NCBI GenBank assembly: GCA_918797485.1
Contig: CAKKNE010000001.1
Span: 2,170,001 to 2,234,000, forward strand
Direction: 5' to 3'
From: Pelagomonas calceolata
Taxonomy: Eukaryota > Sar > Pelagophyceae > Pelagomonadales > Pelagomonadaceae
Length of the DNA: 64,000 nt
A model generated the notes under the pieces. It was not told the origin of the DNA and did no database searches. It worked only from the letters and a program-made list of their open reading frames with translations. Each line of letters starts with the position of its first letter. Position 1 is the stretch's first letter. The position numbers were made by a program, and so were the translations under genes. Below, piece after piece: positions 15,481 through 23,494 of this stretch.

Positions 15481-18400
15481 CTAGCCCGGAGCCGGCGCCT
15501 CTTGTTGGCCCGTCAGCAGAGGAGCGAACCGCCTAACATGATCGGTCTTCATGAGCTCCTTGATCTTGCGCAGGCGCTGCTCGGCCTTGGCGTCGTCGCG
15601 GCGCCACTCCTGGGACTGCCACTTTTCCCTCATTTGTAGGGCGTCGGGGTCCGGTTCTGCATCGGCCAGCGCGACTTCCCTCCTCGTCGCGTCCAAGGCA
15701 GCCTCAGCCGCGAGCACCGCGTCCAGCCGATCGTCAGCTCGCTCCAGACACCGTCGAGCCGCGGCGTGGTTCGCCCGGAAACTTTGTAGATCATCAGCAG
15801 AGGTAGGTGCCGCTTCCTTAACTTTCCCGGCATAAGCAGAACCGAAATGCTGCGTCGCGGACTGCATGTTCTCGTCGTAGGCCTTCCTAGCTTTCAACGT
15901 ACACGCTACCACATTCCTGATCGTCTCCCAGCGCTTCCTGACCGATTCGTCGACGGCGCTGTCTTCCTCGACATGTGTAGGTTCAGATAAAGAGGGACAC
16001 GGCACCGAAGTTAACGATTCAATAAATTTGCCCACAACCGGCGTCGCCTTCGTCGGCGTCATCTGCGATGCGGAAGGCTTCTCGCCGGAAGCTTCTGCCG
16101 CTAGAGCGCGTTCCAAGCGATCCACCCTTGATCTATAAAAGACCGAGGCATCTTTCACCGTATACTCCTCCCGCAGATCCTCCTCGGAGTCCGAACCGTA
16201 TGCCCTGTTCTGTAGGGTCGGCGGCGGCACGAGATCGAAAGCTTCGTCGAGGGCGACGTCCGCGAAGTGCCCGTACCCGTGGCAACACACCGCCGCCAAC
16301 AATCTAGCATCATGTGCGGGAGTCCAGGCGACGTGCGTATCGTTTAAATATCGTTCCGTGATGTCCCTGCTGAACTCGACACCGCTGTGCGGGATCTCCG
16401 AGGCTCTTCGTCTCAACTTCCGTTCCACAAGTGCGAAGAACCCGACGCGTCGCAGTACTCTATCGCCGTCGAAGGGATCTCGGGACGCATCATACCCTTC
16501 GGCCTTCTGTCGTAGACACTCATCTAAGGCCTCCCTACATAGTTTCATTGTAGCCGCAGGAGAATCAGCAAGCGAGCCCATCTCGAGCCGCTCGTGCGCC
16601 AACACACCGCCATCGGACAACCCACCGGGCAGGCCAAACCGCTCCAGCTTCGCGGCGACCTTGGCGATCGACGACGCCACGGGTCTAGTTACATCTATCT
16701 CGACCGAATCATCTGAATCCGACTCGACCTGTGTGGAAATCAAATTTACGGCGCGTTCGTCCTGAATCGTCGCGTCGACCTCCACGCCATCGACGCGACG
16801 CCTGCTCGATGGCGTGGCGATGCCGGTTCCTCACCGCTCGACCGAGCCAGCACGGCATCGCCGCGAAGTGCACCCGACACACTGGTTGATTTCCACACAG
16901 GACTCTACGTGATGAAAATCGCCATCGTCCAGATCATCATCTTCCTCATCTAACACCAGCACGGGACCCTGCTTGATCTGCTTCCGTTCTCGTTTGCCCT
17001 TCCCCAAACTTTCCTGCGTTTTTTGTTGCGTCGCGTCGTAACCAGTTTTTAACAGCTTATCCCATCCTTCAAACTCAGGTGAAGGCTCTTCTTCCTCTTC
17101 CGGTACTTCGTCGGTCTCCTCGAAGCTTATTTCGGCGACTTTGAAGGAGTCCATCAGTTTTGATAGGTTGTTTTTCTCGGCGACCGGTGTCTCCTCGTTC
17201 TCTACTTCTGGCTCCCTATGTAATAAAGCAGAGATGGCGTCGTCGTCCCACTTGATCTCCGGTTTGTTCGTATTCCCATCACCGTATCTCTCGGCTCGCG
17301 ACGCGTCGACGTCGGCCGCGGCGCCACCGGAGAACAACTCAGACGCGCCGTACTTGAGCACGTCATCCAACTCGGCCCTCGACAGGTTTTTGGAACCGGC
17401 ACCCGACACGACGACGTGCTCCAGGCACAGCTTTCGTTTCGCGACCGCCACAATGCGCTCCTCGACTGTTGCCCTCGATACGAATCTGTAGACCCGAACC
17501 GCGTCCCGTTGGCCGAGTCGATGCGCCCTCGCTAAAGCTTGTAGATCATTATGAGGGTTCCAGTCCGCGTCATAAATAACGACAGTGTTCGCTGTTGCTA
17601 GGTTGACCCCGAGCCCGCCCGCCCTCGTACTAAGTAAGAACAGAAATAGCTTGGAGTCCGGAGCGTTGAAGGCGTCGATGCGTTTTTGCCTTATATCTGA
17701 AGCGGTCGACCCGTCTAAGCGCGTCGTGCCGTACCGTTTTAGCGCTGCAAATTCCTCCAGCACATCTAACGTTCTTGTCATCTGCGAAAATAACAGAACT
17801 CGAGCCTTGGCCTCTTTTAGTTTGAGGAGCATCCTATCTAGTAAAGCGAGCTTGCCCGAGCCCTGCAATAACGCTTCGACGCGGTCGCCTTGGATCATAT
17901 CTTCCGGGAACTTGTCCCGCATGAGCTCGACGTGGTTGCACACTTTTCGTAATTGCATCACTATATTTTGTAAAGCAGGAGCTCGAGCCTTCGACTTGGA
18001 CCCTTCGGCGCCACTCAAGGCCGGGAAGTTCGCCGTCAAAACCGCCCTATATAACTTCTTCTGCGTCGGCGTGAGCTCGACGCGCACCACGAGCTCCTTC
18101 TTCGCCTTGATCACTCCCTTGAGGACGTCGTCCTTGAGGCGCCGCAGCATGCGACCCTGCAACAACTCCCGCAAATTCGCGAGGCGCTTCTGGGTCGCCT
18201 CGTCCTCTTCGTTGGAGGAAAACACCTGATCTAGCGCCGCGATGGCTGTTGTACCTTCGACAGAGCATTCTTTTTTCACGCGCTCCGGGTCTAGGAAGAG
18301 TAGTAGGTGGTAGAGCTCATCTAATGAATTCTGCAAGGGAGTACCAGTAAGTAACACGCGAAAGGCGCTATCTAAGTCATGTAGCTCCCGAAATAATCGG

Positions 18401-20240
18401 CCGGCACTGCCCGACTTGAGGCGATGGCCCTCATCAACAATCAGGCAGGACCACGCCCCTATACTTTTTAAGGCTGATTTCTCAGAAGAAGCCGTCTCGT
18501 ACGACGTGATGCACACGTGGAAGCGTCGCGTCTTGTCGAATTCCGCATCTTTACAGACGTCTCGCGCCGACGCGGATCCTGTTAAAACGACGCAGTGCAA
18601 ATCGGAACACCACTTCTCGAGCTCGCGCTCCCAGTTCTGTAACGTCGACAGAGGCGCTACTACGAGTGCCGGGCGCCAGTCCTTCTCCGAACGCTCGTAA
18701 ATTAACGACGCTAGCAATCCGGCGGACTGGATCGTCTTGCCGAGGCCCATCTCGTCGGCCAAGATACAACTGGTCTTGGATTGCGCTTTCGCGCGGAGCC
18801 AGTCGAGGCCCTGCAATTGATAATCTCTTAGTGTTCCACCGTCGAACCACGCCGGTTGTGTACTTTTGAGGGCCTTATTGCGAGTAGTAGTGCCGAGTTG
18901 TCTCTTAGCCTTAATAGCAGGCGTATCTACACTTCTTTCTCTCTCATCAAAAGCTTCCCGGAACGACGTGCCGCACCGATCCAGATCGCACTCGCGCTCC
19001 CAGGACGACTCGTCGTAGGGCCTACCTCTCCACTTCACGAGTAAATCTCGGGTCTTCGTCGCTCGTCCGTCAATGCTAAAAGGCCGCTCGGCTAGAACGC
19101 GCTGCGGCACGACGCTAAACCCGCTGCCCGAGTTCCTAGTAGCCGCCGCGAGCCTTCTTAGTTTGATGGCGTCGCCGCGCTTCCAACTAGGGTCCTCGTC
19201 CTCGTCGTTGTCCGAGTCGCCGTCGGCTAATTCCAGACCGACGCCGTAGTCGCGGACGCGCTTCTCGTAGTTGCGCAGTTTGCCCTTCGATAGACCTTCT
19301 ACTCTTTTCCGCTGGACCCATGACCTGTGTGATAGTCAACCAGTGAGTCGCGTGCACGCGGCCGTGCTGGCTCCATCGAGCGGTGAGGAATCGACACACC
19401 GTCACGCCGTCGAGCAGGCGTCGCGTCGATGGCGTGGAGGTCAGAATTGGGCCGTGGGAGATGCGCCGCGACATTTGATTTCCACACGGGTCGGGACGCG
19501 TGCCAATCGGCAGAAGCCTTCCACGTGCATAGGTACCAGTCCCCGTCGTGGCACTCGATGGCCTCCAAACCGTACGACGCTTCGCACCGGAAGCACCGCC
19601 ACAGATCGCCCTGCGGGGCCCGTTGGCCGTTCTCCCGTAAGGCTTGTTCACAATATCTCCGACCGCAATGCCCACATCTATAGTCGGCTTGCTTGTTCCC
19701 ACTCTTCCCACCACCGCACGTCTCGTGGCACAAATTCTTCGCTTCACAACTATCGCACTCGAACACGCCTGCATCCGGCACCCGCTCCCGACCGGCGCAC
19801 TTCATGCTAAAACGTTTGCTACAAATAGCACATTTTTCGGTAGGCACCTGCTTCTTGCACACACTACAGACCGGTGTGCTTTTCGGTTTCTTCGCTACAG
19901 GCTCTTCCTCTTCACTACTATCTTCGAGCGCGACAAAATTGTCGTCTTTTTTTGCGGTTCTAGCTCTAGGTGAACCCTTCCGCGGCGACGGTTTGCTCAT
20001 GGGCCTCGACATCCACTGGGTTAATGCTACTTCTAGCTCTCCCGCCGTCCGGCCCCGGCGCGGCCCGTCGAAGGCTGGATCGTTCGCCACAGCTTCGAAG
20101 TCCTCGCCGCCGTGCTTATGCAAGGCGGGCAAGAGCCAGGCGTCGCCCTCGACGTAGGCCTCTTCTGTGTCTTGAGCTTTCGCGCGCGGCTTCTTGGCGC
20201 TCGGCGCGGTCGTGGGGGAGCTGCGCCGCTTCGGCGGCAT
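15481..20240 (-). CDS. CHD/Mi-2-type chromatin remodeller (PHD, two chromodomains, SNF2 ATPase)
   Basis: Exons 20240..19498, 19324..16909 and 16728..15481 give 1468 residues in one frame; both introns are introners. Order: Lys/Ser-rich N-terminus; Cys-rich zinc fingers (CSVCKKQVPTEKC, CHETCGG, YRCGHCGRRYC); chromodomain 1 (WYLCTWKASADWHASWVQ, the WHASW restored exactly by splicing at codon 248); chromodomain 2 (LLVKWRGRPYDESSWE); SNF2 core with DEMGLGKT, DEGHRLKS and the HELICc run ADWNPHNDLQALARAHRLG; an acidic stretch; then a SANT-like segment (HVAWTPAHDARLLAAVCCHG). The start MPPKRRSS has a good context (AACCATGCC). CHD proteins slide or evict nucleosomes with ATP. Retention of either intron would truncate the protein. 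Divergent from DNA polymerase lambda. Confidence 0.9.
16729..16900 (-). mobile_element. Introner A (TIR element forming an intron)
   Basis: 172-base element bounded by perfect 15-base inverted repeats CTGTGTGGAAATCAA / TTGATTTCCACACAG, flanked by 8-base duplications GTAGAGTC (intron side, 16901-16908) and GTCGAGTC (exon side, 16721-16728), 7 of 8 identical. The intron is 16729..16908: its GT comes from the upstream target copy and its AG from the end of the repeat, so splicing restores the uninterrupted codon sequence. A hairpin stem (CCACGCCATCGA and its complement) with a 12-base loop lies near the 3' end. No coding capacity. Confidence 0.9.
19325..19489 (+). mobile_element. Introner C, inserted antisense to its host gene
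   Basis: 165 bases, ends CTGTGTGATAGTCAA and TTGATTTCCACACGG (diverged TIRs), internal hairpin shared with introners A and B. It lies plus-oriented in the minus-strand remodeller gene. Intron 19325..19497: the donor GT is from GTCCCGAC, the acceptor CACACAG from the TIR, and the exon-side copy is GTCATGGG; only about half of the 8 bases still match. Splicing rebuilds the WHASW core of chromodomain 1, which strongly supports the model. Confidence 0.85.
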
Positions 20241-20726: not shown

Positions 20727-23494
20727 ATGGACACAAGCATGACCTTCGACAACGCCGCGCCCTGCGCGACGCGCTGCAATTTCTGCAGCGCGTGCGTCCA
20801 CTACCGGACGAACGTCCGCATCCAACAAAGACGGGAAAAACAAGAACGGGACCGCCGGCGCGGCATCGCGCCTCCGCCTCCACCCGAACCCGCGCCGTCG
20901 CCGGCCAAGAGGGCGAGGACGATCTCGCAGGAGCCCTTCGTTGATGTTTTATTAGCCGCGGCGCGCGACCCGCTCGCCGTGCCGCCGCGGTCGGCGCCGG
21001 CGCGGACGCAGACGGCGCCCTTCTTCAGTGACGCGGCCATGGCGCCGCCGCCGCCGCGCGCCTCCAAGCGCAAGGCCGAGGAGACGCCGCCCGTCGACAA
21101 GGCGCCGCCCGCGCTGTCGCCGACGCCGCCCGAGCGGCGCCCCGAGCTGGCGCGCGAGGCGCCCGCGCGGGCCCCGTCGCCGGCCCAGCCCTTTGAAATC
21201 GTCGCCGTCGACGACACGCCTCCCGAGGAGACGGCGCCGCCGCCGGTCCCTCCATTGTCGACGCAAGTGACGCCCCTCGACGAGGAGGCCGACGTTATAC
21301 AGCAGAACTCTCGGTCGCTACCCATCCTGCTCGAGGAGACGCCTCCATTAGTACCGCAGCGGTCGCACTCCGCTCCAGTGAGTGACACGACGAGACACTA
21401 CGTCGATTCGCAGTCGCCGCGAAGAGGTTTGTTGGCGGGCCACGCGCTGGCCTTCGCCATCGGCAGCGGCCTGAACAAGCCGCAGGCCGAAACGCTCGCC
21501 CTCAAAGTGAAAGTCCACGCGGGCCGGCTCGTCAAGGGCGCCGGCAAGAAGGCCATCGACGGGATTGTGAAAGAACGCGCTTCAATAGAAGATCGAAGAA
21601 AGGCCTTCGGTGCCGCTACCGTGGTCATTTGCGGGCCGCGAGCTCGCGTCGACGCGCCCGAATTGGAGGGGGCGCGGAAATGCGCCTCTGTAGCGTGGCT
21701 CACGGACGCCTTCGGTTCTAAGAGACTAGGCCACGTCGACGACTACGCTCCATTACCTGCTGTAGTTGTGGAAGCGCCACCGCCGCCTGAACCAAAGAAG
21801 CCGCGGACGTCGTGGCCTGTGTGGAAATCAACCAGTGCGTCGGGTGCTCGTCACGCCATCGAGCAGGCGTCGCGTCGATGGCGTGGAGGACGACGCGATG
21901 ATTCAGCACGAGCGCGCCGTAAAATTTTGATTTCCACACAGGTCGTGGCCCGAGCGCATGAAGCAAGGGTTGGCCTGCCAAAGGGCGCCCAAACCAGAAG
22001 GCGAGCTGCCGCCGAACGACCGAATCGTCAAAAAATTAGAGGAGCTCTGCGGGTTCTACGAGTCTTCGGACGACGGCACGAGCCAGTTCCGGCTGCGCAT
22101 CACGCGGCGGGCCGTGAACAAGCTCAAGTTACTAGGACGGGATTTGACCGACGACGACGTCGAGGAACATAATCTGAGAAAGATCCTGGGCTCGAAGTTC
22201 GCGAAGAAAGACAGCAACAAGGGTCTGGTGCAGAAGATCACGGAAATTCATGAAAGTGGTGACCTCGACCGGCTCAGGGAGTGGCGCGCGGACCCGCGGA
22301 GGTGCGCGATCATGGAGCTGTCCAAGGTCTGGGGCATTGGCTACCGGAAGGCGCAGACGCTGATCGACAAGAATAATATCTGGTCCGTCAAGGAGCTCAA
22401 GGAAGAAGCGGAGAAGAATCCCAAGATCGTCGAGGCGCGCGTGCACCGAACCTTGCGGTGCCACGACGATCTGCAGCTAAGGATGTCGCGCGAGGAAGCT
22501 TTAGAGATCGGCGACCGCGTGCGCAGTTGCGCGAAGGCGGTCTTCGCGGAATTGCTACCTTTACATGACGTGGCGAAGCTGAAAGTCGAGGGTGCGCCGG
22601 CGGCGTCCCGCTTTGGTCGCTCGCGCGTCGATCTCGCGTCGATGGCGTCGCCGCGACGCCGCGACGCCGTCGCCGCGCGCAGGTCCCATGGGGTCGTTTA
22701 GGAGGGGCCAGCCCGACTGCGGCGATGTTGATGTGTTGGTGACGCACGAGGACTGGTTGGATGATCCGGAACGAACCGTATCACTGGACAAGCAGTCGCA
22801 GGAGTCGTCGCTGTCTCGGTCTTCCTACGCTAGAACGAGGAATTTGGGCGACGAAGAGGCCACTGAAGGTGAAGACCCCGACTACGGCGCGCAGCGGTCG
22901 CGGGCGTCGCGGGACAAGTTCCTTGCTACGTTGCGAGATAGGTTGCATGCCCAAGGCTTCCTCACGGACCATCTCGGTGGCGACGGCTTCCAGAAGAAGA
23001 CGACGACGGTCCAGGGCGAGGTGCCCGGCGCCGGGTGTAGCTCGTACATGGGCATCTGCAAGCCGAGAGACACGCATCGGCGGCTAGATATCAAGGTCTA
23101 CGCGCCGCAGCACTACGCGTACGCGATGATTTACTTCACGGGCAACGACTACTTCAATAGAAGTATGAGATGCTACGCGAAGGCGTGCGGCTACTCGTTA
23201 TGTGATAAAGGGTTACGAAAAGCCGCGCGGTCGGGCGTCTCGCACAAGGACGGCAAGTATATTGATAATAAAGTCGCTGTCGGAAGGTTGGTGGTCTGTG
23301 AAGAAGAAAGAGACGTCTTCGAGGTGCTCGGCTTAGATTACAAGGAGCCGCACGAGCGCAACGTGTCCGACAACGCGACCGAAGTCGCGGAGAAGGCGCG
23401 GCGGTTGTTCGAGGAGCAGCGGCGCGGCGGCGTTGTCGTTGATTCCGATAGCGATGACGAAGATGCTAGGCCGGCGGGGCGGTTCCGGTTGTAA
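20727..23494 (+). CDS. POLL: DNA polymerase lambda-like (family X), BRCT plus polymerase core
   Basis: Exons 20727..21808, 21942..22591 and 22683..23494 give 847 residues. Residues about 40-230 are Pro-rich and disordered; about 235-330 look like a BRCT domain (GAATVVICGPR ... CASVAWLTDAFGSKRL). Exon 2 has the 8-kDa lyase and fingers regions (FRLRITRRAVNKLKLL is odd, then KVWGIGYRKAQTLID). Exon 3 opens with the palm motif GSFRRGQPDCGDVDVLVTH, with catalytic Asp at about 592 and 594, the third in RRLDIKVY (about 713), and the nucleotide-binding YFTGNDYFNRSMR. Pol lambda fills short gaps in base excision repair and end joining. The first intron is introner B; the second is not. Confidence 0.93.
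21817..21941 (+). mobile_element. Introner B, perfect target duplication
   Basis: 125-base element, ends CTGTGTGGAAATCAA and TTGATTTCCACACAG, flanked by identical GTCGTGGC at 21809-21816 and 21942-21949. Intron 21809..21941 (133 bases). The hairpin arms CACGCCATCGA (21852-21862) and TCGATGGCGTG (21875-21885) enclose a 12-base loop. Compared with introners A and C it lacks an internal block of roughly 40 bases. The intact 8-base duplication suggests it is the most recent of the three. Confidence 0.93.
22592..22682 (+). other. 91-base intron of the polymerase gene, introner-related word inside
   Basis: GT at 22592, CGCGCGCAG at the 3' end; splicing makes a Gly codon G|GT and joins the lyase region to GSFRRG. 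There are no CTGTGTGG-type ends, but GCGTCGATGGCG (22636-22647), the word from the introner hairpin, lies inside. Confidence 0.8.

Follow-up and report, generated by a model that had tools for sequence, protein, structure and literature searches.

Inverted-repeat introners in Pelagomonas calceolata: a predicted intron in a DNA polymerase lambda-like gene and the family to which it belongs

It has long been asked where new introns come from, and for their gain in large numbers introners are a proven source. Those of Aureococcus anophagefferens and Micromonas were reportedly described by Huff et al. in 2016 as DNA-transposon introners. Aureococcus sp. and Pelagomonas belong to the same class. 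In some introner families only one splice site belongs to the element, and the second is provided by the duplication made on insertion (Gozashti et al., PMC9860276, the main text of which does not mention Pelagomonas). In P. calceolata RCC100, intron lengths peak near 210 bp, and this peak has been called characteristic of Introner Elements (PMC9481584). Within the open-access passages and titles surveyed, this is the only source tying introners to Pelagomonas; the passages describe neither a terminal inverted repeat (TIR) nor a target-site duplication (TSD), and give no copy number, orientation or rule for the donor, for which its supplement may be the place. The introner mechanism is already published, then, and Pelagomonas introners are already mentioned in print (PMC9860276, PMC9481584). 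What we add here is the separation of target preference from splicing demands, the independence of orientation and the frequent GC donors, as well as relatives that likely differ in having or lacking the insertion at a single codon.

The element that we describe lies in the window, that is, the whole 64,000-nucleotide stretch of P. calceolata DNA that was analysed, inside a DNA polymerase lambda-like gene. The gene and the element are laid out as follows:

20727..21808, + strand: exon 1 of the DNA polymerase lambda-like gene, with a predicted start codon
21809..21941, + strand: predicted intron GT..AG, 133 nt; its removal together with 22592-22682 restores the frame and the relatives' junction
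21809..21816, + strand: upstream target-site copy GTCGTGGC; bases 1-2 are the predicted 5' splice site, from the sequence and coding-strand statistics
21817..21941, + strand: mobile element, 125 bp, non-autonomous, the 203-bp family consensus minus 78 bp internally, in + element orientation
21817..21831, + strand: 5' TIR CTGTGTGGAAATCAA, exact, 15 bp
21927..21941, - strand: 3' TIR, exact CTGTGTGGAAATCAA; the gene strand ends in CAG, the predicted 3' splice site
21942..21949, + strand: downstream target-site copy GTCGTGGC, identical to the upstream copy; stays in the exon
21942..22591, + strand: exon 2 of the polymerase gene, from the restored frame and Pfam and PDB matches
22592..22682, + strand: second intron, GT..AG, from frame restoration and relatives
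22683..23494, + strand: exon 3, palm and thumb regions, up to the stop codon, from the frame and Pfam

The sequence-only reading of this DNA had placed an element with 15-base inverted ends and an identical 8-base duplication in a DNA polymerase lambda gene, with coding sequence restored by splicing. Both TIRs are exact and GTCGTGGC is the same on both sides, just as it had claimed. The host gene is indeed lambda-like: in PDB its spliced product matches lambda and beta chains of DNA polymerase, and in Pfam the DNA polymerase beta palm and thumb are above cut-off, the lambda fingers being weak and below it. The element sits upstream of these Pfam-matched domains. The restoration was also borne out, since removing both 21809-21941 and 22592-22682 leaves one 913-codon open frame whose junction equals, at the protein level, that of uninterrupted relatives. 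The predicted intron, at 133 nt, is not divisible by three, and the unspliced frame that enters the element stops at 22169. From the reading frame, the strand statistics and the relatives, we infer that 21809-21941 is spliced. Across the window, CTGTGTGGAAATCAA with up to three mismatches has 7 matches against 0.67 expected, a count reached by 0/100 shuffles. Apart from its 78-bp internal deletion, the copy at 21817-21941 differs from the 203-bp consensus by 2 mismatches in 125 aligned bases. The second polymerase intron (22592-22682) carries no introner TIR at up to three mismatches and is possibly of another origin; it is translated wholly or partly in the relatives P0004-P0007, and absent in P0002 and P0003.

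Polymerase relatives were compared as proteins, by cluster representatives only. The spliced junction peptide of the polymerase is TSWPERMKQGLACQ. It stands uninterrupted in P0003 (75% identical), and P0002 (90% identical over the query) has an uninterrupted TSWPERMKRGLACQ at the same place; both are also unbroken across the position of the second intron, and their records do not state for either whether it is an unspliced frame or a spliced model. P0007 again has TSWPERMKQGLACQ, and P0004 has TSWPERMKQ before it diverges. Because these two translate the second intron, they look like unspliced reading frames, and the sequences suggest that they lack this element. P0008, P0009, P0010 and P0011 (1, 1, 5 and 24 member sequences, respectively) read TSWPVWKSTSASGARHAIEQ: they enter the element of the window, in its shortened form, at one and the same codon. 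Inside the element P0009 is shortened further, and past it P0010 no longer follows the window, so some of these contigs may be chimeric; the junction is out of reach of P0005, P0006 and P0012. The lineages with the shared insertion are about 8-10% different from the window in exon 1. Overall, several lineages carry the insertion and others seem to lack it; in the latter a putative empty site depends on the relatives being unspliced open reading frames. The element had been called young. Its closeness to the consensus agrees with this, yet the same insertion is read by four protein clusters from other records, and as it is common to several lineages, it is young only in a relative sense. P0004 and P0007 also have introner-like inserts elsewhere, a few codons downstream and within about 20 codons of the window's site (seen by eye in the translations), and the sequences suggest that introners may have landed in this part of the polymerase gene more than once, independently.

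Two further copies of the family lie in the window, both in a gene for a CHD-like protein with Pfam matches to SNF2-related, Chromo and DUF1087:

16729..16908, - strand: second family copy, predicted intron of the CHD-like remodeller gene; element at 16729-16900, donor GTAGAGTC at 16908-16901
19325..19497, - strand: third, decayed copy, predicted intron of the same CHD-like gene; element at 19325-19489, donor GTCCCGAC at 19497-19490

Only if 16729-16908 and 19325-19497 are both removed does the gene form a single 1,501-codon frame. The element at 19325-19489 has 3 and 1 mismatches in its TIRs and target copies that agree at 4/8; decayed as it is, it still restores the frame, and looks like an introner ageing into an ordinary intron. 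Two copies are also found in an XRN-like gene (locus L020; Pfam XRN_N above cut-off), the first of them with a GC donor, and removing both gives a 753-codon frame. Both XRN-like junctions are uninterrupted in P0099 (93% identical, on a 4.6-kb contig), with two residues changed just past the second, and P0101, P0103 and P0106 are uninterrupted at the second junction and do not cover the first. In the polymerase gene and at the two XRN-like junctions, removal therefore yields the uninterrupted sequence of the relatives, at the protein level.

The sequence-only reading had also proposed a genome-wide search for further copies of the TIR, and had assigned the element to the introner model. Across the genome (32,445,274 bases in 8 contigs), the TIR has 790 + 772 = 1,562 exact matches (control 0 and 0), and 1,261 + 1,255 = 2,516 at up to one mismatch, where the backwards control has 2 and 0. 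Of the 100 listed places with an exact TIR on the forward strand we sampled 90, all of them on contig 1: 88 were extracted and 2 lie in the window, the last 10 being excluded. Other copies in the stretches around them were included. Pairing ends with up to three mismatches that lie 45-320 bp apart gave 85 TIR pairs, with 12 unpaired ends (up to one mismatch). The paired elements measure 56 to 206 bp; 22 of them are 198-207 bp long and 14 are exactly 203. Twenty full-length copies are 2-8% off their consensus. The two target copies agree at 8/8 in 42 pairs, 7/8 in 22, 6/8 in 10 and fewer in 11, so that an 8-bp TSD matches at 7/8 or better in 64/85. The family thus has the TIRs and the fixed-length target duplication of a DNA-transposon (MITE) introner, and its copies, numerous and alike, sit as predicted introns at unrelated places in genes (53 strand-called copies from 47 stretches). 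With a donor from the target and an acceptor from the element (see below), every part of the proposed model that can be judged from DNA and protein sequence found support. L039, L063 and L065 form a subfamily with the same TIR and another inner start, AATTTCNGRCRCCCCA; hence several sequence types use these ends.

Each of the 64 copies with a TSD of at least 7/8 begins its TSD with GT or GC on one strand or both: 54 have GT on one or both, 10 have GC only, and in 20 both strands qualify. Copies in which neither strand qualifies number 0/64, where the marginal rates predict 7.5 (24/64 x 20/64 x 64; Fisher p ~1e-5). Pairs with a lower TSD agreement have GT or GC in 20/21, and the sole exception, at 1/8, is possibly a false pairing. 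The coding strand was called from codon usage on the restored site, blind to the donor. A first rule called 55/64 copies; adding a margin between the strands left 53/64 called and 11 uncalled. By the margin rule, the coding strand has GT or GC in 52/53 copies (40 GT, 12 GC) and the opposite strand in 17/53 (Fisher p ~7e-14), in line with the claim that the upstream target copy supplies the donor. The claim that the acceptor comes from the element's own end agrees with the CAG in which the element, read on the gene strand, ends in 53/53 strand-called copies. The background of GT/GC over all sites in the window and the 10-kb stretches is 17.5%, which the opposite strand exceeds (p = 0.0099). When GT is preferred over GC under the first rule, a single donor strand is found in 52/55 copies and agrees with the coding strand in 47/52. 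Among the five disagreeing copies, the coding strand carries GC in four. The fifth, L030, is also the single exception to the 52/53; its other strand has GT and, once restored, a frame with a ubiquitin-conjugating domain above the Pfam cut-off, so its strand was mis-called. Genome-wide, GT stands eight bases outward of the exact ends 645 times and GC 342 times, or 987/1,562 (63%), near the ~65% predicted by averaging the sample rates of 0.98 and 0.32.

At target positions 3-6 (+3 to +6) the coding and opposite strands do not differ in the strand-called sample (p 0.66-0.89); they do at positions 7-8, which mirror 1-2. Of the GT donors, 0/40 read GTRAG, and in this sample there is no sign of selection beyond the first two donor bases. 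Intergenic copies with intact ends are apparently rare: 0/64 copies are without a donor on both strands, though such copies would often be expected there.

Because the inside of the element is asymmetric, its orientation can be read; relative to the gene it is 26:26 among strand-called copies, with one unclear. Together with the symmetric ends, this means that the acceptor is supplied either way round. Crossing the donor side with element orientation gives 14, 14, 15 and 16 copies in the four classes (five unclassified); this independence argues against an asymmetric insertion complex behind the donor rule. A hairpin requirement for splicing found no support: the predicted RNA fold is strong (z of -5.05), yet TIR positions in the 85 pairs are changed one-sided 53 times and two-sided 0 times, and the copy at 19325 restores its frame in spite of 3 + 1 TIR mismatches. 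Nor did we find the 3' TIR better kept than the 5' TIR by selection (no difference, Mann-Whitney p 0.82).

Directly observed are the anatomy of the element, its family and target duplication, the strand rule, the independence of orientation, the frames restored by removal and the uninterrupted relatives. Taking these together, we consider it very probable that we are dealing with an introner, in which a miniature inverted-repeat DNA transposon turned into a spliceosomal intron on landing. As the TIRs and TSDs indicate, a transposase would insert the element and duplicate 8 bp of target. Both ends being the same 15 bp, which read outward end in CAG, an acceptor would be at hand in either orientation. 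The donor would be bases 1-2 of the target copy on the upstream side, and splicing of a copy would therefore require a target that begins with GT or GC on the transcribed strand. Removal from donor to acceptor would leave one target copy, and with it the original coding sequence. Insertion preference appears to be mild, and the near-universal donor on the coding strand would reflect a selective filter, the loss of unspliceable insertions.

By themselves, TIRs and a TSD indicate merely a transposon, and one may ask whether the element is an ordinary, unspliced MITE in a broken or mis-read gene. This is highly unlikely: removal restores frames for the three copies in the window and the two at L020, downstream exons match the relatives, the donor strand tracks the coding strand, and retention would stop the polymerase frame at 22169. 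The position of the strand-called copies as introns would also suit a spread via RNA, in which the intron, once excised, is reverse-spliced into new places. However, such a route predicts one orientation and no duplication, and what is seen is 26:26, a TSD of at least 7/8 in 64/85 and paired TIRs, which makes it extremely unlikely.

The remaining alternatives concern the donor. The GT/GC rule might be a target preference of the transposase alone, without selection for splicing, and it is true that the opposite strand is raised as well (17/53 vs 17.5%) and that TSD positions 3 and 6 look palindromic. A site-symmetric preference, however, cannot know the coding strand (52/53 vs 17/53), an asymmetric one would track element orientation, which is even relative to the gene, and the shortage of copies with GT or GC at neither end (0/64 vs 7.5) likewise speaks against preference, which we judge improbable as the only cause. 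Alternatively, the donor might lie inside the TIR, cutting between CTGT and GTGGAA.., so that splicing would add 12 nt (8 of TSD and 4 of element). The TIR does contain GTGTGG, 12 nt preserve the frame here while adding four residues, and a donor of this kind has been published for an Aureococcus sp. family (PMC9860276). Element-free relatives are compatible with it, and the opposition comes from the strand statistics: such a donor needs nothing of the target, yet GT/GC is found in 52/53 on the coding strand vs 17/53 on the opposite one, and copies with a single TSD mismatch have 0/22 of these mismatches at positions 1-2. We regard a donor inside the TIR as quite improbable.

If the element is an introner with a target-derived donor, the alga's spliceosome may accept almost any GY donor beside it, and the family would then be a natural saturation screen for the minimal 5' splice site. 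We offer this tentatively, as a possibility on the doubtful side. Were it true, the cause would be either generally lax donors or the constant adjoining element sequence helping to define the site, and about 1 in 3 genic landings (17/53, from the unselected strand) would make an instant intron.

We also looked for the enzyme that might move the family. No transposase with these TIRs was found in Pfam-family searches of the alga's own genome, which diverged or intron-split genes can escape. The families searched (Dimer_Tnp_hAT, KDZ, MULE, TNP-like_RNaseH_N of the P element, DDE_Tnp_IS1595, DDE_Tnp_4 and hAT-like_RNase-H) gave one match overall, a hAT; the misses for KDZ, TNP-like_RNaseH_N and hAT-like_RNase-H mean little because control genomes also gave nothing. 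The match belongs to a single hAT-like element (L052:2050-5700; C4, 3,651 bp) with perfect 16-base TIRs CAGGGCAGCAGAAGGG, a 721-aa open frame and a TSD, TTGCTCGC, that agrees at 8/8, and it looks recently inserted. It was rejected as the mobiliser of the introners, as its ends differ from theirs and its protein matches only itself at E <= 0.01. The TIRs of hAT elements start like CAGNG. The introner family has the 8-bp TSD of a hAT MITE and a TIR that starts with CTGTG, unlike CAGNG, and the family searches found no hAT transposase element bearing introner TIRs in the genome, CAGGGCAGCAGAAGGG being the ends of the sole hAT match. Viral spread was rejected too. A TIR-based pattern in viral contigs gave two stretches with the same local sequence, taken as chance because of their 36-37% GC and the absence of a nearby partner TIR.

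With its size, its recent age and its clean copies, the family allows transposase preference to be told from splicing demand, and it shows a symmetric element functioning in both orientations, with a landing site that needs little beyond GT or GC on the gene's strand. Relatives that differ at the same codon would make the gain, loss and cost of a single intron measurable in an ocean alga.

Among known systems, the type of DNA transposon with TIRs and TSD is common, by description, to the introners of Aureococcus anophagefferens and Micromonas and to the Pelagomonas family. The published Pelagomonas peak of ~210 bp fits the 203-bp element plus 8, or 211 nt, found here (PMC9481584). Family 1 of Symbiodinium microadriaticum is alike in having TIRs, a TSD, a 3' splice site from the element and a 5' splice site from the TSD, and unlike in its 4-bp TSD, against 8 bp in Pelagomonas, and its unrelated host (PMC9860276). 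The Pelagomonas family falls among introners with a TSD donor, since on the coding strand its TSD begins with GT or GC. In the same source, Aureococcus sp. family 4 shares the 8-bp TSD; unlike the Pelagomonas family, it has both splice sites inside the element, with 12 nt added (PMC9860276). The strong target requirement in Pelagomonas sets its family apart from that type, and its statistics favour a donor from the target and exact restoration of the coding sequence.
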